A DNA stretch of 9,280 nucleotides, taken from the NCBI GenBank assembly GCA_021797025.1, contig JAKAAK010000118.1, forward strand, positions 1 to 9,280, written 5' to 3'. This DNA is from Thermoplasmata archaeon (GTDB lineage Archaea; Thermoplasmatota; Thermoplasmata; Thermoplasmatales; Thermoplasmataceae). Each line of letters opens with the position of its first letter. Within the stretch, counting starts at the first letter, position 1. The notes under the pieces were generated by a model. It worked only from the letters and a program-made list of their open reading frames with translations. It did not search any database and was not told the DNA's origin. Both the position numbers and the translations under genes were made by a program. Shown here one piece after another: positions 1,274 to 9,280 of the stretch.

Positions 1274-2710
1274 ATGGCAGAAACATCGAATAGTGGTTCT
1301 AACTATAAATATAAACTCGACGAAATATTGCATAGGCTTGACGATGCTAAATTAAAGAGATTGTACTGGAGTTTGGTGGCACTTGCTACAGTTGGTGGAT
1401 TTCTTTTTGGATATGATCAATCGAATATTGGCCTTGTTATACCTTTCTTTCCATATACCTCCAAAATCCCTGTGCTGTTAGGGTTGGAAGCTTCATCAGA
1501 ATTTATTGGTGGTGCATTCGGGGCTTTGATTATTACTTTTCTGGCTGATAGAAGTGGACGAAAAGTATTTTTGCTTGCAGATATGGCTATATATATAGTT
1601 GGCGCTTTGATTTCCGGTTCAGCTTTTTCTTATATAGAACTTTTTATAGGGAGATTGATCATCGGGGTTGGAATCGGTGCAGATAGTGCTATAGCAACTG
1701 CTTATATATCTGAATTTGCGCCAGCTAAAGACAGGGGGAGGTTAACAGGTTTTCAGCAAATGATGGTTAACATGGCCATTTTCGGAGCCTATTTAATCGG
1801 TATATTAATTTATGGTGTTTCACCCGGCCTCGCAACTACTATTGGCTGGAGACTAATATTTTTTGTGGCTGTAATTCCCTCGGTTGTGGGATTACTCTTC
1901 AGGTATAAAATGCCAGAATCACCAAGATGGTTAATAATACATAAAAAAACAAAGCAGGCACTTAAAGCACTCAATCAATTCGGTATTGCAGCTGAAGAGA
2001 GTGAAATAATCGAAGCTTCAAACGAATGGATTGCCAAAACAAAAAATTATAAAATACCCAGATCAATATGGAAAGCCGTGGGGGTTGTAATTGGTTTTGC
2101 GTTTTTTGACATGTTCTGTGGTATTGATATCCCATTCATCTATGGCCCTACAATTTTAAGTACTATACATCTGTTTCCGAGTAATATTGGTCCTGTTACA
2201 ACAGAAATTTATGACATGGCCGCACTTCTTCCAATTGGTGTTGCACTCGTAGTTGGAGGATTTTATGGTTGGAAACATATAGATACCTGGGGGCGAAAGA
2301 AAATTTCTGAGATAGCGTGGAGTGGTATGATAATCTCAGGCTTAGCGGCAGCAATTTTATGGTCTTTCAAATTATATATCGCTGTTCTTATATTACTTTA
2401 CATATATACGTTTGTATATTCGGTTTCTATAGGTATGACCGCATGGGTTCTCCAGGGAGAGACTTCCACAAGTGAATCCAGGGGATTTATTGCCGGAATA
2501 ATTGCAATTGCAATCTGGATAATGGATTTCGCAAATGTTACTATATACCCTATCATGTCCAGTGCAATTGGATTTACAGGCGCATGGATTGTATATTCAA
2601 TATTGTCCGCAGGTGCTCTTGCATGGACTGTCTTTATGTTGAAAGAAACTAAAGGGATTCCTGCAGAAGATATGGATAAATTATATGTGAAGAACGCAGG
2701 AGCTAAATAA
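1274..2710 (+). CDS. MFS transporter, sugar porter type
   Basis: A 478-residue secondary transporter of the major facilitator superfamily, expected in the cytoplasmic membrane with 12 helices. Hallmarks of the sugar porter family are visible in order: GFLFGYDQ in helix 1 (about 42-49), the loop 2-3 signature ADRSGRK (91-97), GRLIIGVGIG in helix 4 (126-135), PESPRWL after helix 6 (214-220), the second-half loop signature DTWGRKK (337-343) and ETKG after helix 12 (458-461). The length is typical. The N-terminal 30 residues are soluble and charged. Substrate cannot be read from sequence; the family carries sugars and other polyols or organic acids by proton symport, and the neighbourhood (dehydrogenase, sugar-acid dehydratase, GH88) makes a sugar or sugar acid likely. 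It appears to be a single-gene transcript ending at the T-run at 2738-2744. Confidence 0.88.
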   Translation: MAETSNSGSNYKYKLDEILHRLDDAKLKRLYWSLVALATVGGFLFGYDQSNIGLVIPFFPYTSKIPVLLGLEASSEFIGGAFGALIITFLADRSGRKVFLLADMAIYIVGALISGSAFSYIELFIGRLIIGVGIGADSAIATAYISEFAPAKDRGRLTGFQQMMVNMAIFGAYLIGILIYGVSPGLATTIGWRLIFFVAVIPSVVGLLFRYKMPESPRWLIIHKKTKQALKALNQFGIAAEESEIIEASNEWIAKTKNYKIPRSIWKAVGVVIGFAFFDMFCGIDIPFIYGPTILSTIHLFPSNIGPVTTEIYDMAALLPIGVALVVGGFYGWKHIDTWGRKKISEIAWSGMIISGLAAAILWSFKLYIAVLILLYIYTFVYSVSIGMTAWVLQGETSTSESRGFIAGIIAIAIWIMDFANVTIYPIMSSAIGFTGAWIVYSILSAGALAWTVFMLKETKGIPAEDMDKLYVKNAGAK

Positions 2711-3239: not shown

Positions 3240-3671
3240 ATGAAAACTGATATAATCAAAACCCCGGCCAGGACAATAACAGAAACCGATATTGTTAGGT
3301 TCGCGGGATTAAGTGGCGATTATCACCCTGCACATACAAATGAAATATATGCATTGACAACATCCATATCAGGCAAACGGGTGGCACACGGCCTGCTTAT
3401 ATTAAGCATCTCAGAAGGTTTATTTTTCAGGACTAATTATTTTGATTGGGAACATGTCCCCCTAATGACGTTAGGATTTGAAAATGTAAAATTCCCTAAT
3501 CCCACATTTATCGGAGATACCATACATACAGAACTATTCATTAAATCGAAAAGAGACAGTTCAAAACATAAAGGCATGGAAATAATCATCTTCCATGCAA
3601 ATGTTGTAAATCAGGAGGACATAATTGTTTGCGAATATGATCATCCCATAATTGCTAAAAAACAAATTTAA
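3240..3671 (+). CDS. MaoC-like hot-dog enoyl-CoA hydratase/dehydratase
   Basis: A 143-residue single hot-dog-domain protein of the MaoC / (R)-specific enoyl-CoA hydratase type, which adds water to, or removes it from, CoA thioesters in the cytoplasm. The diagnostic hydratase segment AGLSGDYHPAHTNEIYA is at residues 22-38: D27 and H32 match the catalytic Asp-x(4)-His pair of (R)-hydratases. The HGLL motif follows at 50-53, and FPNPTFIGDT (about 85-94) matches the family's conserved P-x-x-x-G-D segment. Length is normal for a stand-alone family member. It has its own promoter, and its last codons overlap the 3' end of the CoA-transferase gene coming from the other strand, so the two are not co-transcribed but are likely functionally linked: transferase makes a CoA ester, hydratase acts on it. 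The exact acyl group is unknown; mesaconyl-, crotonyl- or hydroxyacyl-CoA are possibilities from related proteins. Confidence 0.85.
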   Translation: MKTDIIKTPARTITETDIVRFAGLSGDYHPAHTNEIYALTTSISGKRVAHGLLILSISEGLFFRTNYFDWEHVPLMTLGFENVKFPNPTFIGDTIHTELFIKSKRDSSKHKGMEIIIFHANVVNQEDIIVCEYDHPIIAKKQI

Positions 3672-3690
3672 ATTACTTTTTCCTTTTTTA
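3654..3690. terminator. Bidirectional T-rich terminator at the convergent gene ends
   Basis: Rightward, the hydratase stop is followed by TTACTTTTTCCTTTTTT (3673-3689). Leftward, the CoA-transferase stop is followed by TTTGTTTTTTAG, the complement of 3655-3666. Each T-run therefore lies inside the last codons of the opposite gene. Oligo-T termination on both strands within about 35 bases would keep the two transcripts from running far into each other. Confidence 0.45.
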
Positions 3691-4849
3691 AATTATTTAT
3701 GAAGTGCGCCGAGAAATGCATGACATTTTCATAGAATTCATCATTATTATACCCTAGGGGAAGGCCGGGAGATTTAATAATTCCCGGTGTTTCAGACATT
3801 TTTAATGCAGAACCGATAGTCTTGAAATTACCTATAGTTGGATGTTTGGTGTTTACTATCATATTTCGTGCTATTACCTGCGGGTCACTAATCATGTCTT
3901 CTAGCTTTTTAACAGGGCATGCAGCACCTCCACATTCCTTAACTATGGCAACGTCATATTCCATGGTATTTTTTATACTCCAGTCTGAGACTATCCTGTC
4001 AACAATATCAGAATGTGCAGTTCTATCCTTTAAAAGCTTTAATCGATCATCATCTAAATCAGCCGGTGTTCCTATTTTTTTGATAAATGCTTCCCATTTG
4101 GCATCTTCCCCGATTACTATAACTACCCATCCATCTTTAGCCTTATAAACATTATAGGGTGCAAGGACAGGTATAGCATTTCCCTGCTTTTCCACATTGC
4201 CTACCTGCAGCTGGCTATATAGCCCGATCATATAGTTAACGCCCACATCCAGCATTGATATATCTATTCTCTGGCCATGGCCTGTTCGCTCTTTATGAAA
4301 GAGTGCAGTTATAATAGCCATTGCGGTGAAAACCCCTGCCGAAATATCTATAATAGCCGGGGCCGATCTTATTGGTGGGTCCCCAGGAAAACCTGTAAGA
4401 TCCATCATACCGGTTAATGCTTGAATTGTTGTGTCGTAGGCTGCATCATTTTTATAAGGGCCTGTATAACCAAAACCAGTGCTGGTGGCATAAATTATAT
4501 TGGGGTTAACTCTTTTCTGTGCTTCATAACCAATACCTAGCCTATCCATAACACCTGGCCTGAAGTTATCAAGGACCACATCACTAATTTTAACCATGTC
4601 AAGAAAAATTTCTTTGCCCTTATCAGATTTCAGATTTAACGTTATGAACTTTTTGTTACTATTATAGTTCATGAAGAATGTAGACTCACCATTTATAGTA
4701 GCTGAATTATGCCTGTTAGGTTCTCCAAATGGTGGTTCAACTTTAATAACTTCTGCCCCCAATTCTGCAAGCAATCTGCCTGCATATGGGCCGTTAAGAT
4801 GAAACGAGCATTCCAGTACTCTAATGCCATCAAGCGCCCCGGCTGCCAT
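3668..4849 (-). CDS. CaiB/BaiF family III CoA-transferase
   Basis: A 393-residue family III (CaiB/BaiF, formyl-CoA-transferase-like) enzyme that moves CoA between carboxylic acids, normally as an interlocked cytoplasmic dimer. Visible family blocks: LDGIRVLE (6-13), LLAELGAEVIKVEPP (26-40), NSNKKFITLNLKSDKGKE (63-80), DNFRPGVMDRLGIGY (94-108), NPNIIYATSTGFGYTGPY (115-132) and the C-terminal PLGY. D168 in the segment PAIIDISAG aligns with the catalytic aspartate (Asp169 of oxalate formyl-CoA transferase), so the enzyme should be active. Length is normal. The start is set by MAAGALDGIRVLE, which fits the family N-terminus, and by a TATA-like box about 29 bases upstream. It follows the dehydratase gene on the same strand after 98 bases but has its own promoter. 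Substrate not predictable from sequence; succinyl-CoA or acetyl-CoA is a common donor. Confidence 0.9.
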   Translation of the reverse strand: MAAGALDGIRVLECSFHLNGPYAGRLLAELGAEVIKVEPPFGEPNRHNSATINGESTFFMNYNSNKKFITLNLKSDKGKEIFLDMVKISDVVLDNFRPGVMDRLGIGYEAQKRVNPNIIYATSTGFGYTGPYKNDAAYDTTIQALTGMMDLTGFPGDPPIRSAPAIIDISAGVFTAMAIITALFHKERTGHGQRIDISMLDVGVNYMIGLYSQLQVGNVEKQGNAIPVLAPYNVYKAKDGWVVIVIGEDAKWEAFIKKIGTPADLDDDRLKLLKDRTAHSDIVDRIVSDWSIKNTMEYDVAIVKECGGAACPVKKLEDMISDPQVIARNMIVNTKHPTIGNFKTIGSALKMSETPGIIKSPGLPLGYNNDEFYENVMHFSAHFINNLKKEKVI

Positions 4850-4947: not shown

Positions 4948-6054
4948 TTACTGGTCAACAACGTATTTTTCAATGGCTTTTTCCTTCACCTCAGAACCGG
5001 CACCTTTTATTGTGCCAAGATGGAAGTACCCATTTTCAGGGGCTATTGGATATTTCCAGACATCTGCTAGCCAATCAACATGTTCCACCATTTTTCCATT
5101 CGGCACTGAAGCAACCAGCTGTGCATGCAGCGGTTGCTGTATATTTGTATGTGGGTACACATTCAATCCGAATGCCTCGGACAGATTGGCGACCTTGAGC
5201 CATTCTGTTATGCCACCTACTTTCGTTGCATCAACCTGGACAATATCTACAGCATGGTTGACAATATAATCCCTGAATGAATACAAAGATGTCAGTGATT
5301 CTCCAAGTGCAATAGGTATATTGGTTCTTTTCTTCAGTTCTGCATGGGCGTATATATCATCCGGGTTCAGTGGTTCTTCAAGCCAGTATATATCAAACTC
5401 TTGAAGTTTCCTTGACATGTATACTGCTGTTTCAAGGTCCCATTTTGTATTGGCGTCTATCATCAATCGCATGTCCTTGCCTATAGCCTCTCTGACCGCC
5501 TTTACCCTGTAATAGTCATCTATGGGGTTCTGGCTTCCCACTTTGAGTTTGATAGATTTATAACCTGATTGCTTTAGTTTTATTGCATTGGATACAAGGT
5601 CTTCTTTTGGCCATGAAAGCCATCCCCCGTCAGTATTATAAGCCTCTACACTGTCACTTCCCGCACCAAGTATTTTATAAAGCGGAACGCCCTCCACCTT
5701 GCAAAGTATGTCCCACAGGGCTATATCCACCAGCGAAGATATATACACGCCAAGGCCATTGTACCCGAGCCTCGGGTCCCACCCAAAGTTATGGGTAGAC
5801 ATAAGTGACCTGTTAATGTCAAGGCGCATAAGCGGGTCCATGCCTATAAGCCGGGATGATATGTATTCATCAAACATTTTTTTAACAACGCCCAATCCTT
5901 CGGATGTATGCCAGTTATATCCAAACCCTTCTATGCCGGTATCGGTAGTGATCTTTAAAACCAGCAAGTTTATCCCGGTCACTGTATACTGTGAATCGTT
6001 GATTCTTTTCACAGGTATATTCATTAGATATGTCTTTGCTTCTGTTATTTTCAT
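4948..6054 (-). CDS. Mandelate-racemase-type enolase-superfamily protein, probable sugar-acid dehydratase
   Basis: A 368-residue protein with the two-domain plan of the mandelate racemase subgroup: an alpha+beta capping domain (about 1-125) and a (beta/alpha)7-beta barrel. All catalytic parts are present: K169-x-K171 (IKLKVG), magnesium ligands D200 (IDAN), E226 (LEEP) and E252 (GES), the Asp-His pair D275 and H302 (PHTN), and E324. The enzyme abstracts the proton alpha to a carboxylate in the cytoplasm. In archaea related proteins dehydrate gluconate, galactonate, xylonate, arabinonate, fuconate or rhamnonate to 2-keto-3-deoxy acids; which of these applies cannot be read here, and a racemase or cycloisomerase cannot be excluded. 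The start MKITEAKTYL matches the family N-terminus and has a TATA-like box about 23 bases upstream. It lies 107 bases downstream of the regulator gene on the same strand. Confidence 0.88.
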   Translation of the reverse strand: MKITEAKTYLMNIPVKRINDSQYTVTGINLLVLKITTDTGIEGFGYNWHTSEGLGVVKKMFDEYISSRLIGMDPLMRLDINRSLMSTHNFGWDPRLGYNGLGVYISSLVDIALWDILCKVEGVPLYKILGAGSDSVEAYNTDGGWLSWPKEDLVSNAIKLKQSGYKSIKLKVGSQNPIDDYYRVKAVREAIGKDMRLMIDANTKWDLETAVYMSRKLQEFDIYWLEEPLNPDDIYAHAELKKRTNIPIALGESLTSLYSFRDYIVNHAVDIVQVDATKVGGITEWLKVANLSEAFGLNVYPHTNIQQPLHAQLVASVPNGKMVEHVDWLADVWKYPIAPENGYFHLGTIKGAGSEVKEKAIEKYVVDQ

Positions 6055-6070
6055 AAAATATTATTTTTTT

Positions 6071-6081
6071 GTTATATATAT
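6071..6081 (-). promoter_or_regulatory. TATA-like promoter of the dehydratase gene
   Basis: Leftward the box reads ATATATATAAC, about 23 bases before the ATG at 6054 and followed by an A-rich stretch. It would give a leaderless mRNA. The wider 6055-6161 gap is almost all A and T and also holds a T5 run (leftward, 6149-6145), a possible end of the regulator transcript. Confidence 0.45.
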
Positions 6082-6161
6082 GGTTATCTTTCAACATGTT
6101 CAATTTTATAAAATAAATTTAAAATTTATGGAACTCCCATTAATAAAAATACCTTCTCATA

Positions 6162-6860
6162 TTAACTTTTTACCTGGTTGACATTATCCAGTAATTTATC
6201 TATTTCCATATTCTGGACATGGGTTGAAATATAATAGTTAATCGTATTGGTTTCTATTTTCCTTAATTTTCTGGAAACATTGGATTTAGAAATGCCAAAA
6301 ATTTTTGCAATTTCACCCAGGTTAATATTTTTATTCTGGGAATAATACCCTCTTCCAATTGCATAATTAAGAAGGTTCAGGTTTGCAATTACATCTTCAT
6401 CGATAAATGGATTTGGAAAATTTATATTGTCTAACTCTGTATAAGAAACCATATCCGCAACATTTTCTATACTTTTAAGGAGTTCTTCTCTATTAGTGTC
6501 CCAGAAGAAGATATCCCATATTTCATACCCACGGTAAAATATTTCCCTGTAAAATGGCACATCGTATTTCTCTATTACAGAAGTTACAGAATTTTTAGTA
6601 CTGTTCAGGAATTTAACAATAAAAATTTTAGATTTATTATAGGATTCAATGTGTTCTAAATTTTTAACAGAAACTTCTTGCTTTAAGTTTTTAAAAAATA
6701 ATTCCCAATCTGTATCCTTATGCAGGGAATAAAATGCTACATTGCCTGCTATATCATTAGCAAAGGATTTTTGCCGCAGTAAAAATCCATAAATATCACT
6801 ACTTTTGGAAAGTATTTGTGACCAGCATGTCTTATGATTTAATATAACTCTTATGAACAT
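6162..6860 (-). CDS. HTH_10 (bacterio-opsin activator type) transcriptional regulator
   Basis: A 232-residue protein with an unrecognised N-terminal domain of about 155 residues and a C-terminal helix-turn-helix of the archaeal bacterio-opsin-activator (HTH_10) kind. The family signature is clear: LNLLNYAIGRGYYSQ (about 160-174), then INLGEIAKIFGISKSNVSRK (179-198) and LRKIE. This domain binds DNA as a dimer and in haloarchaea and Thermoplasmatales controls nearby metabolic genes. The N-terminal half, rich in aromatic residues and alternating beta/alpha segments, is presumably a ligand-sensing or dimerising domain; it has no membrane segment. The gene is divergent from the dehydrogenase operon (137 bases between start codons) and lies upstream of the dehydratase, so these are the most likely targets. 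An inverted repeat straddling its own TATA box suggests autoregulation. Confidence 0.82.
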   Translation of the reverse strand: MFIRVILNHKTCWSQILSKSSDIYGFLLRQKSFANDIAGNVAFYSLHKDTDWELFFKNLKQEVSVKNLEHIESYNKSKIFIVKFLNSTKNSVTSVIEKYDVPFYREIFYRGYEIWDIFFWDTNREELLKSIENVADMVSYTELDNINFPNPFIDEDVIANLNLLNYAIGRGYYSQNKNINLGEIAKIFGISKSNVSRKLRKIETNTINYYISTHVQNMEIDKLLDNVNQVKS

Positions 6861-6997: not shown

Positions 6998-8035
6998 ATG
7001 AACTGTAATGCAATGGTGCTTGAAGATTTTAACAGGCCCCTGGTAAAAAAATCAATAGAAATCAAGGAACCTGTGGGTGAGGAGGTAGTCATAAAAATTC
7101 TTGCTGCCGGGATGTGTGGGACTGATCTTGGAATTTCAAGGGGGATTGAGCTGAAACCCGGTTTTAAATTACCCATGGTGCTTGGGCACGAAAATGTTGG
7201 AAAAATAATAAGCACTGGCACCAATGTTAAAAATTTTAATATTGGAGATATCGTTGCAGTTTATCCTGCATGGGGATGTGGAAATTGCAGATGGTGCCAT
7301 AATGGTTTCCCAAATCTATGCCCATATCAAACAACACCCGGGCAGACAGGCTATAATGGAGGATATGCTGAGTATATGATGGTTCCCAGTTACAGATGGC
7401 TCTACAATATAGGTAAACTAAAACCCGTTGATATTGCACCCCTTGTGGACGCTGGGACAACGTCCATGGGTGCCGTTTTGAAAATTTTGCCGTCTCTATT
7501 ACCATCATCTACTGTGATTATTAATGGAATTGGTGGAATTGCTACATACGCGGTTCAAATTCTCAGGGCTTTAGCCCCTTATGTACGGATAATAGCGGTA
7601 TCAAGAAAACCAGAACATCTTCAATTTGCCAGTAAACTCGGAGCCGACATAGCTATCACGCCAGCAGAGCTTCCGGAACTTATAGATAAAGAAACGCATG
7701 GAAGTGGTGTAGATGCTGCTATAGACCTTGTTTCTACGGCTGATACAATCCCGCTCTTAAACAAATTGCTCACAGTAAATGGTAAATTGGTACTTGTTGG
7801 CGCATATGGGAGCAGTGCACCTATAGACGTATTTCCAACAATGGTCTACCAGCACTCAATTATGGGCAGCAATTATGGAACATATGAGAACATGGTTGAT
7901 GTGATAAACATGTATGCGAGGAAATTTATTAAAAGCTATGTTGTTAAACGGCAACTTGAGGAAGCAAATAAAGGTTTGATGGATATGGCTTCTGGAGTTA
8001 TAATTGGCAGGCAGGTTATAGTTCAAAATGAATGA
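6998..8035 (+). CDS. Zinc-dependent medium-chain alcohol/sugar dehydrogenase
   Basis: A 345-residue cytoplasmic oxidoreductase of the zinc-containing medium-chain dehydrogenase family. The N-terminal GroES-like domain carries the catalytic zinc ligands C40 (GMCGTD) and H64-E65 (GHEN), with D151 (LVDAGTT) as the probable further ligand, and a complete structural zinc site C94, C97, C100 and C108. The Rossmann domain has NGIGGIA (176-182), in which the third glycine of GxGxxG is alanine. At the end of the second strand AVSRK (200-204) replaces the usual acidic residue with Ser-Arg, which favours NADP over NAD. Length is normal. Related archaeal enzymes oxidise aldoses to lactones or act on alcohols and keto-deoxy sugars; the adjacent lactonase-like gene makes a sugar 1-dehydrogenase attractive but unproved. 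It is the first gene of a two-gene operon and divergent from the regulator. Confidence 0.9.
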   Translation: MNCNAMVLEDFNRPLVKKSIEIKEPVGEEVVIKILAAGMCGTDLGISRGIELKPGFKLPMVLGHENVGKIISTGTNVKNFNIGDIVAVYPAWGCGNCRWCHNGFPNLCPYQTTPGQTGYNGGYAEYMMVPSYRWLYNIGKLKPVDIAPLVDAGTTSMGAVLKILPSLLPSSTVIINGIGGIATYAVQILRALAPYVRIIAVSRKPEHLQFASKLGADIAITPAELPELIDKETHGSGVDAAIDLVSTADTIPLLNKLLTVNGKLVLVGAYGSSAPIDVFPTMVYQHSIMGSNYGTYENMVDVINMYARKFIKSYVVKRQLEEANKGLMDMASGVIIGRQVIVQNE

Positions 8036-8042
8036 AGGTGAT
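8034..8042 (+). promoter_or_regulatory. Shine-Dalgarno site deciding the start at 8046
   Basis: GAAGGTGAT at 8034-8042 matches the archaeal 16S anti-Shine-Dalgarno sequence (AGGAGGTGAT) over nearly its full length and sits three bases before the ATG at 8046, with the GGTG core five bases away. It cannot serve the in-frame ATG at 8028, which lies before it. Confidence 0.65.
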
Positions 8043-8045
8043 AAA

Positions 8046-8822
8046 ATGGTAGATATATTTAGTATAAAATTGATAAAAGTGGGAGAGCATACGGTGCCAT
8101 CTCCACTTGCGTACTTTATGAAGGATTTTAATAAGTATGAAAAACTTGTTTTTCATGTGGCATTAATCAATGCTGGTGGAGAGAAAATAATATTGAATAC
8201 AGGGATGCCCGTCGATATGCGGCCACTGTTACAGCACTGGAAAAATACAGACCCGGGCATAAAAGCGGTAAAATTTGAGGAATTTAACAAAGCATCGTAT
8301 TTTTCTGCAATGGGTTTTGACCCTGATTCAGTAGATCACGTGATCTTATCCCCTCTTGTTTCCTATGCAACTGGCAATCTGGATATGTTCAAAAATGCAC
8401 GCATACATTTCTCAAAAACCGGATGGGAACAGATAATGAATAAAAATCCACTTGAAGTGATGCCAGAAAAGGAGATAAATTTTCCAGATTCTATTTTAAA
8501 GCCACTGGTAACCGACTGGTGGGAAAGGGTTAATTTGCTTGAGGATGAGGATAAAATAAACAACTCCATCAAAGTAATAAGAACTGGCGGCCATCATTTC
8601 AGTTCCATGCTTGTCATTGTTGATACGGAGATAGGAAAAGTTGGGCTCACAGATTCATTTTTCACCTATAAAAATTTAGAGGGGCATATACCTATCGGTG
8701 TTGGGGTTGACCTTCGAGAATCCATTAACTCCATAAAAATTGCTGAAGAAAAATGTGATATAATAATTCCGATGCTGGACCAGAATTTGACCCAAAAGTA
8801 TCAGAATGGCATTATAGTTTAG
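8046..8822 (+). CDS. Metallo-beta-lactamase-fold lactonase-like protein with a degenerate metal site
   Basis: A 258-residue protein that follows the layout of N-acyl-homoserine-lactonase-type MBL-fold hydrolases: LNTGMP (50-55) for DTGMP, GFDPDSVDHVILS (90-102) before the metal motif, TGGHHFSS (180-187) for TPGHxxGS, and LTDSFF (201-206) for LTxDxxY. The HxHxDH motif should follow ILS, but the sequence is ILSPLVSYATG: the four ligands become P103, V105, Y107 and A108. The final GHD histidine is L244 (MLD). Only H183 and D203 of the usual ligands remain, and the catalytic-loop tyrosine is F206. The frame is intact and well translated in appearance, so this is a conserved-looking gene, not obvious decay. 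A normal two-metal site cannot form. It is the second gene of the dehydrogenase operon, starting 10 bases after it. An ATG at 8028 would add six residues and overlap the dehydrogenase end; 8046 is preferred because of its ribosome site. Confidence 0.78.
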   Translation: MVDIFSIKLIKVGEHTVPSPLAYFMKDFNKYEKLVFHVALINAGGEKIILNTGMPVDMRPLLQHWKNTDPGIKAVKFEEFNKASYFSAMGFDPDSVDHVILSPLVSYATGNLDMFKNARIHFSKTGWEQIMNKNPLEVMPEKEINFPDSILKPLVTDWWERVNLLEDEDKINNSIKVIRTGGHHFSSMLVIVDTEIGKVGLTDSFFTYKNLEGHIPIGVGVDLRESINSIKIAEEKCDIIIPMLDQNLTQKYQNGIIV

Positions 8823-8830
8823 TTAAATTA

Positions 8831-9280
8831 TTATTTTCCTTTACTAAGATAATTTTTTAAATGAAGAAGAAAGCTTAAAAGGTAATAGTCACTGTATATT
8901 AGATCCGCATTTGTTGCTACGTTTCTTGGTTTGTCAAAACATCCGTGATTTAAAATGTAATTCTGCATAGAAGAATCAATATAAGGGGTAAATGAATAAA
9001 AAATCTCTCTTAAGAGTTCCTCGTCCTGTGTCCCCTGATTGAATAGCATTATAATATAAGACTCTGCTAAAATTGCAAGTGCAGATGTATCCAGTGGCGG
9101 AAGGGTTGCCATCGGTGCATCTAAATCGTAAAAAGGCACCATGCTGGAATTATTATTATTTTTTAAATAGAAATTTAAGGCCTGTAAATAAATCCTCTGG
9201 TACTCTGGATTGTGTGTGTGCCTGTATCCGTATGCGAGTGCAAGGAGGAACCACGCCTGGCCCCGCGACCATGTGGAATC
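8831..9280 (-). CDS. GH88 unsaturated glucuronyl hydrolase, C-terminal part (cut by window edge)
   Basis: The frame is open from the right edge to the TAA at 8833-8831, giving the last 149 residues; the true start lies outside the window. The fragment begins DSTWSRGQAW, the conserved (W-x-RGQAW) block of GH88 unsaturated glucuronyl hydrolases, followed by a Y-x(n)-T-x-N-x-x-Y helix pair, VPFYDLDAP (48-56), PLDTSALAIL (62-71) for the family's DSSA segment, and a C-terminal SDYYLLSFLLHL matching GDYYFLEAL. These are helices of an (alpha/alpha)6 barrel. The family removes 4,5-unsaturated uronic acids left by polysaccharide lyases. With a usual length of about 370 residues, roughly 60 percent is missing, including both catalytic aspartates, so activity cannot be judged. 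RGQAW favours GH88 over GH105 (RGNGW). It is convergent with the lactonase-like gene, 8 bases apart. Confidence 0.82.
   Translation of the reverse strand, partial: DSTWSRGQAWFLLALAYGYRHTHNPEYQRIYLQALNFYLKNNNNSSMVPFYDLDAPMATLPPLDTSALAILAESYIIMLFNQGTQDEELLREIFYSFTPYIDSSMQNYILNHGCFDKPRNVATNADLIYSDYYLLSFLLHLKNYLSKGK
8851..8859 (+). terminator. T-rich stretch after the dehydrogenase operon
   Basis: AATTTTTTA at 8851-8859, preceded by shorter T-runs at 8833-8842, lies within 40 bases of the lactonase-like stop codon. It could end the rightward transcript. It is inside the coding end of the convergent GH88 gene. Confidence 0.35.

Follow-up and report, generated by a model that had tools for sequence, protein, structure and literature searches.

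The DNA considered here, a 9,280-nucleotide stretch from a Thermoplasmata archaeon (GCA_021797025.1, contig JAKAAK010000118.1; hereafter the window), carries towards its end a zinc-dependent medium-chain dehydrogenase (ADH) gene followed on the same strand by a gene for a protein with the metallo-beta-lactamase (MBL) fold whose metal ligands have largely been replaced; we call this protein MBL*. Its reading frame, 8046-8822, runs uninterrupted over 258 codons, as a preliminary description of this DNA had stated, and a start equivalent to 8046 is used by most close orthologues; an alternative in-frame start upstream, at 8028, would give an 8-bp overlap with the dehydrogenase gene. A likely ribosome site is indeed present, but as it lies just 3 nt before the ATG, the adjective strong that had been given to it is generous. 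The AF2 model of the protein (pLDDT 91.4) predicts the alpha-beta-beta-alpha sandwich of the MBL superfamily as seen in AiiA-type lactonases, and the nearest solved folds are hydrolases.

Ligand positions were mapped by profile alignment of the MBL* family to the solved lactonase 8x78, in which THMHFDHMGN, SHTFGS, GDIVYWYSN and PGHD of 8x78 fall on tPlqdYatgn, vHHrsS, tDsaFkyrN and plyd of the family, respectively. The alignment bears out what had been read from the window: all four HxHxDH ligands are replaced (by P, V, Y and A), the last histidine ligand is lost as GHD becomes MLD, and the catalytic-loop Tyr is now Phe (F206), while the third His ligand (H183) and the bridging Asp (D203) are retained, here and throughout the family. 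Two features go beyond that earlier reading: the Asp of motif I, found as DTG in four and DVG in one of five compared HxHxDH sequences, is Asn in MBL* (N51), and a second invariant His, H184, occupies a position that is Thr in 8x78.

A single-sequence search returned 8 proteins, the window's own included, all with SPL[VI]SYATGN, and a search of 101 related genomes gave 25 matched places in 18 genomes, most of them ~30% identical and with TPxQDYTxG at the equivalent position. Profile searches gave 220 and then 1333 matches, of which the best 120 of each were inspected; altogether 206 distinct proteins were collected, counting the window's and excluding P0002, a repeat of it. H.H.DH is absent from all 206. 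P103, Y107, H183, H184, D203, F206, N210, G218 and E225 are invariant among them, N51 and S187 are each present in 205, and the columns at the former metal site rank among the most invariant of the protein. Because the substitutions are common to 206 proteins, archaeal and bacterial alike, the ligand loss is far beyond chance.

MBL* is a broad family of archaea and bacteria, not a peculiarity of Thermoplasmatales: among the matches listed, the sources include Ferroplasma sp., Picrophilus oshimae, Thermoplasma acidophilum, Acidiplasma and Stygiolobus caldivivus, and on the bacterial side metagenome-assembled genomes (MAGs) of Bacteroidota and Pyrinomonadaceae. In a sample of 398 genomes, profile A3 matched 13 at E <= 1e-20; the sample came from the same phylum as the genome that holds locus L058, whose record is titled Nitrososphaeria archaeon and whose phylum we take to be Thermoproteota. 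Among 292 genomes sampled from the phylum of the window, 13 matched as well, all of them in the window's family; a profile scan of genome contigs gave 13 loci, all archaeal by title, and the viral contigs searched held no relative. A 71% identical homologue, P0007, is filed under a Candidatus Parvarchaeota MAG, for which mis-binning and transfer are both possible. Named members go by hypothetical protein, Zn-dependent hydrolase, glyoxylase-like metal-dependent hydrolase or metallo-beta-lactamase. Among 35 sampled members (A3), Pfam Lactamase_B matches 6 at E <= 0.001 (best E 3.9e-5), with no other family at that threshold, and the NCBIfam model for AiiA N-acyl homoserine lactone (AHL) lactonase, NF045699, matches 24 at E <= 1e-5 (best 3.1e-21). 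The window protein itself (P0001) matches no Pfam family at E <= 0.1, and so no SMP30 profile (PF08450), and scores 29.1 bits against NF045699, whose cut-off is 375. With this score, with HxHxDH in none of the 206 proteins and F206 in all of them, we reject membership among ordinary AHL lactonases.

In a 50-row tree, 45 family members and 5 HxHxDH lactonases fall on opposite sides of a single branch (support 100/99); the canonical HxHxDH rows have long branches, and the rooting is arbitrary. Four outgroup sequences came from plasmid records (tblastn hits in 61 records with P0097 and 6 with P0082); these 4 are from the 61, and all 4 carry H.H.DH. The alignments leave out two of the 25 matched places, L023 (E 8.4e-4, an ordinary SHLHFDH protein) and L025 (a broken copy). 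Selection was estimated as dN/dS by the Nei-Gojobori method for 33 gene pairs at >= 55% identity, 13 of them with finite dS. The ratio is 0.04-0.18 in these 13 unsaturated pairs, far from 1, and 0.07-0.18 in the seven with dS up to ~1.1; examples are 0.067 (L017/L022) and, in the window's clade, 0.081 (L002/L003). For pairs including the window gene itself, synonymous sites are saturated and dN is ~0.2. MBL* is thus a conserved protein under purifying selection that lacks the two-metal site, as the preliminary description had supposed, and no homologue with the same neighbours and an intact HxHxDH was found.

The features of the window are collected in Table 1. Its ADH has D-arabinose 1-dehydrogenase (2H6E) as best solved match, at E 4.6e-90, the next reaching 7.1e-54. 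The order ADH, MBL*, convergent GH88-like gene recurs in two genus relatives, and in all three genomes dehydratase, sugar porter, CoA-transferase III and MaoC genes lie nearby.

Table 1. Positions of MBL*, its altered motifs and its neighbours in the window
Feature	Position	Strand	Remarks
MFS sugar porter	1274..2710	+	PF00083
Enolase-superfamily sugar-acid dehydratase (MR/MLE)	4948..6054	-	PF13378 1.1e-62; NF047820 256.9 bits, below cut-off 500
HTH_10-domain regulator, divergent from the ADH-MBL* pair	6162..6860	-	PF04967; in the gene cluster at other MBL* loci too
Zn-dependent medium-chain dehydrogenase (ADH), directly upstream of MBL*	6998..8035	+	Pfam PF08240/PF00107
GGTGAT, likely ribosome-binding site	8037..8042	+	Read from sequence; 3 nt to ATG
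MBL*, predicted aldonolactonase	8046..8822	+	258 aa
N51-T52-G53, motif I, Asn where Asp is usual	8196..8204	+	N in 205/206 family proteins; D in 5/5 compared HxHxDH sequences
S102-P-L-V-S-Y-A-T-G110, in place of the HxHxDHxG loop	8349..8375	+	P103, Y107 in 206/206; H.H.DH in 0/206; 8x78 alignment
H183-H184-F-S-S187	8592..8606	+	H183 is the retained ligand position, H184 new (both 206/206); S187 205/206; R185 198/206
D203-S-F-F206, bridging Asp kept, loop Tyr now Phe	8652..8663	+	Both 206/206
L244-D245, replacing HD of GHD	8775..8780	+	Position 244 is Y in 198/206, L in 8/206
GH88-like protein, C-terminal part, continuing beyond window edge; convergent with MBL*	8831..9280	-	Synteny in two genus relatives; full-length homologue PF07470 weak, 23.9 bits, cut-off 26.6

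The gene contexts that we read are those of archaeal loci. Of 23 MBL* genes in the stretches examined, 18 belong, as assigned by similarity, to a sister clade within Thermoplasmatales; these 18 loci are not independent (L011 and L013, for example, are 99% identical). In 17 of them an enolase-superfamily dehydratase lies immediately upstream of MBL* on the same strand, and in the remaining one (L039) a single gene separates the two. Many of these pairs apparently overlap, an effect that may be overstated as open reading frames (ORFs) were called as the longest frame. At L028, a short-chain dehydrogenase/reductase (SDR) scores 469 bits for L-rhamnose 1-dehydrogenase (cut-off 450). With it are encoded a protein resembling L-rhamnonate dehydratase (202.5 bits against a cut-off of 393) and an FAH protein whose closest match is 2,4-didehydro-3-deoxy-L-rhamnonate hydrolase (180.6 bits against 500). 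The set further includes a rhaM mutarotase, a Zn-ADH, a DHDPS-type protein, a sugar porter and an HTH_10 regulator. Across the 101 genomes, MBL* occurs in 18 and L-rhamnose 1-dehydrogenase in 19 (11 above cut-off), with both in 16. MBL* occurs without the dehydrogenase in two genomes: G006, whose contig ends before the position at which synteny would put the SDR (L043 vs L044), and G016, which is 50% complete. The dehydrogenase occurs without MBL* in three: G032 and G058, where the match is partial (G032 being 99% complete), and G043, which is 59% complete. The window genome holds a sister-clade MBL* as well, at G000:C5:16977-17648 beside a dehydratase, and ~3 kb from it lies an L-rhamnose 1-dehydrogenase above the family cut-off.

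In Thermoproteota, a Zn-ADH is immediately upstream of MBL* on the same strand at 8 of 12 loci (L080, L081, L082, L083, L085, L087, L089 and L090). Six of these eight ADHs were compared with that of the window and are 43-44% identical to it, and the one at L080 also has 2H6E as best solved match (E 4.7e-94); this closest structure was established for two ADHs, those of the window and of L080. At L084 a dehydratase takes the place of the ADH, and at L079 and L088 both genes are within the stretch, neither adjoining MBL*. The L080 MBL* gene lies in convergent orientation to that of a true L-rhamnonate dehydratase (644 bits, with a cut-off of 393), which is preceded by a second type of ADH, 49% identical to that of the L028 rhamnose cluster. 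An ordinary HxHxDH MBL protein, L084:12170-12997, lies three genes upstream of MBL* and is usable as an internal comparison.

MBL* is thus linked to genes for a sugar 1-dehydrogenase and an aldonate dehydratase, with exceptions discussed below, and it accompanies two unrelated sugar 1-dehydrogenases, the AraDH-like ADH and the SDR L-rhamnose 1-dehydrogenase. Whichever of the two aldose dehydrogenases is present, what links it to the aldonate dehydratase is the lactone; as the fold, too, is that of lactonases, an aldonolactonase is the simplest reading. On balance we therefore lean towards MBL* being an MBL-fold aldonolactonase that abandoned its di-metal centre, a reading that rests on sequence and gene context. 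The sugar 1-dehydrogenase would convert an aldose to the lactone, MBL* would open the lactone to the aldonate, and the dehydratase would process the aldonate further. D-arabinose and L-fucose are alike, and the AraDH of S. solfataricus accepts L-fucose; the likely substrate of the window copy would be an L-fucono/D-arabinono-type lactone, and that of the sister clade L-rhamnono-lactone. The preliminary description had offered an enzyme with a metal-free or single-metal mechanism, or a partner protein of the dehydrogenase; the former now appears the better choice, and the reading moves from a dehydrogenase-serving pseudoenzyme to a probable aldonolactonase of a metal-ligand-less MBL clade. More tentatively, and with considerable doubt about the whole, we speculate that the fold lost its metals once and that the new invariant site (N51, P103-Y107, H183-H184-S187, D203) may hydrolyse sugar lactones metal-free, supplying the lactonase of archaeal non-phosphorylative 6-deoxysugar pathways in a family that is both archaeal and bacterial. 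As conservation would suggest, H183, oriented by D203, could act as general base on water, with Y107, H184 and N51 polarising the carbonyl.

Several observations weigh against an aldonolactonase. Other lactonases exist in these genomes: SMP30 lactonases are encoded elsewhere in 26 of the 101 relatives and in 9 of the 13 MBL*-positive Thermoproteota. SMP30 and rhamnose dehydrogenase co-occur (of the 26 genomes with the former and the 19 with the latter, 14 have both; p 1.1e-6), although less tightly than MBL* does with that dehydrogenase. Amidohydro_2 proteins are found in 12 of the 101, co-occurring weakly with rhamnose dehydrogenase (5 of 12, p 0.046). The L080 genome and two with like gene order (L089, L090) have no SMP30 and 2-3 Amidohydro_2 matches each, so the lactonase slot is not empty everywhere; in the L089 and L090 assemblies, moreover, the MBL* frame is broken, as are several neighbours. 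At L086 there is neither ADH nor dehydratase near MBL*. L081, L082, L083, L085 and L087 share neighbours unlike sugar catabolism, with an ADH present and no dehydratase in the stretch; those at L081 are of amino-acid-biosynthesis type (homocitrate-synthase-like, aconitase C-terminal, isocitrate/isopropylmalate dehydrogenase), which may mean that MBL* stands there by chance or is put to another use. Lactones can moreover open without an enzyme, in hot surroundings perhaps at a sufficient rate (PMC9795676). The stretches themselves, on the other side, contain no recognised lactonase gene, SMP30 relatives included, and BLAST with ten SMP30/Amidohydro_2 proteins detected nothing homologous in the 502 neighbour ORFs.

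The tie to a dehydrogenase that had been proposed holds in the window's own clade, which keeps its Zn-ADH partner; in the sister clade MBL* adjoins a dehydratase instead, and the dehydrogenase there is an SDR of unrelated type. MBL* is therefore not bound to any single dehydrogenase, and the idea of a non-catalytic subunit for the co-transcribed dehydrogenase finds no support as a general explanation. A dedicated Zn-ADH subunit is disfavoured because the neighbour switches among a dehydratase and two dehydrogenases that are unrelated to each other; a protein that stays constant beside both dehydrogenases is most readily taken for an aldonolactonase. In its broader form, MBL* would be a non-catalytic pseudoenzyme that binds ligands or acts as scaffold for a sugar dehydrogenase or dehydratase, in the manner of INTS9 and CPSF100. 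CPSF100 is likewise a ligand-less MBL protein and partners an active MBL nuclease. The tight, often apparently overlapping gene pairs and the loss of nearly all catalytic ligands agree with such a role, for which INTS9 is a precedent, having lost HxHxDH and kept the fold (PMC7980224). We nonetheless consider it unlikely, given that the neighbour is at some loci a dehydratase, with an SDR close by, and at others an AraDH-like ADH, that conservation at the former metal site is among the highest in the protein, for which a scaffold would have no use, and that INTS9 pairs with an active MBL paralogue while H.[HE].DH occurs in only 2 of the 502 neighbour ORFs (L030_17, L084_11). The INTS9 and CPSF100 proteins are also eukaryotic beta-CASP nuclease partners, whereas MBL* has a new invariant residue set and sugar-enzyme neighbours.

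A lactonase with a rebuilt single-metal site, made of H183, H184, D203 and perhaps N51 or Y107, likewise seems improbable to us. In its favour, H184 is invariant and two of the original ligand positions, H183 and D203, survive, and mixed sites are plausible in view of xylonolactonase, an SMP30-family aldonolactonase that works with one iron held through Glu, Asn and Asp (PMC9795676); against this, just two canonical ligands are left, and H184 occupies a Thr position of 8x78. Somewhat more doubtful still is another reaction on the same intermediates, by a lactone ring-size isomerase, an epimerase or a mutarotase: any enzyme between dehydrogenase and dehydratase would suit these neighbourhoods and His/Tyr/Asp sets fit proton transfer too, but 6 of the 18 sister-clade stretches already have a rhaM-type mutarotase gene, and the nearest folds are those of hydrolases. 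That an ordinary lactonase decayed recently in a single lineage, as ligand loss taken alone might suggest, can practically be dismissed because HxHxDH is found in 0 of 206 proteins, a 100/99 branch splits 45 from 5, and dN/dS is 0.04-0.18 in 13 pairs.

Compared with AiiA-type AHL lactonases (AiiA 2a7m, 8x78 from P. poae, GcL, AiiB) and 4-pyridoxolactonase, the aldonolactonase that we propose differs in lacking HxHxDH and the last His, in the Asn of motif I and the Phe of the loop, and in its new invariant Pro, Tyr and second His and its sugar-gene context. It resembles SMP30/gluconolactonase aldonolactonases in proposed reaction and pathway slot; their fold is a different one, a six-bladed propeller with bound metal (PMC9795676). 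Genes of the non-phosphorylative L-rhamnose and L-fucose/D-arabinose pathways, for dehydrogenase, dehydratase and aldolase or FAH hydrolase, are also found at MBL* loci; unlike in those pathways, the candidate for the lactonase is MBL*. A review characterises the MBL superfamily by HxHxDH and reports the motif in all archaeal sequences detected there (PMC10340364). The pentose gene cluster of Sulfolobus solfataricus is described as having no aldonolactonase gene, the role of two putative lactonases elsewhere being unclear (PMC9795676); MBL* is a testable candidate for that step. The family is large and overlooked, and in archaea it usually lies within sugar-oxidising gene clusters where a lactone-opening step is expected. 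If the proposal is right, a clade without HxHxDH but with an equally invariant set of residues in its stead, and with its constant place next to sugar genes, would offer a clear-cut example from nature of a metalloenzyme fold turned to another kind of catalysis, and annotations such as Zn-dependent hydrolase and metallo-beta-lactamase would need correcting. COG3618 is an amidohydrolase group. In SAR202, the sets of paralogues in pathways for sugars and lactones include it (PMC10444878). Judging by titles and abstract starts, none of the open-access papers listed describes a ligand-less MBL aldonolactonase, although the subscription literature, for instance on archaeal L-rhamnose catabolism, may hold one.

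Some minor observations concern the neighbourhoods. The window encodes a MaoC-like hydratase and a family III CoA-transferase at 3240-4849, as do the two genus relatives and G021, and a CoA-dependent branch of sugar-acid breakdown is possible at these loci. The GH88-like gene adjoins MBL* in G021 too, there on the same strand, and this neighbour hints at unsaturated uronic-acid sugars as a source. At five Thermoproteota loci, the ADH-MBL* pair sits between 335-aa-type and 280-aa-type proteins, whose L081 copies (8484-9491 and 5701-6543) have no Pfam match at E <= 1e-5. Finally, L032 (G021:C3:136500-156000) has three open MBL* genes in different sugar-gene sets within ~13 kb; a fourth copy in this stretch is the broken L025, with one TGA and four TAG codons.
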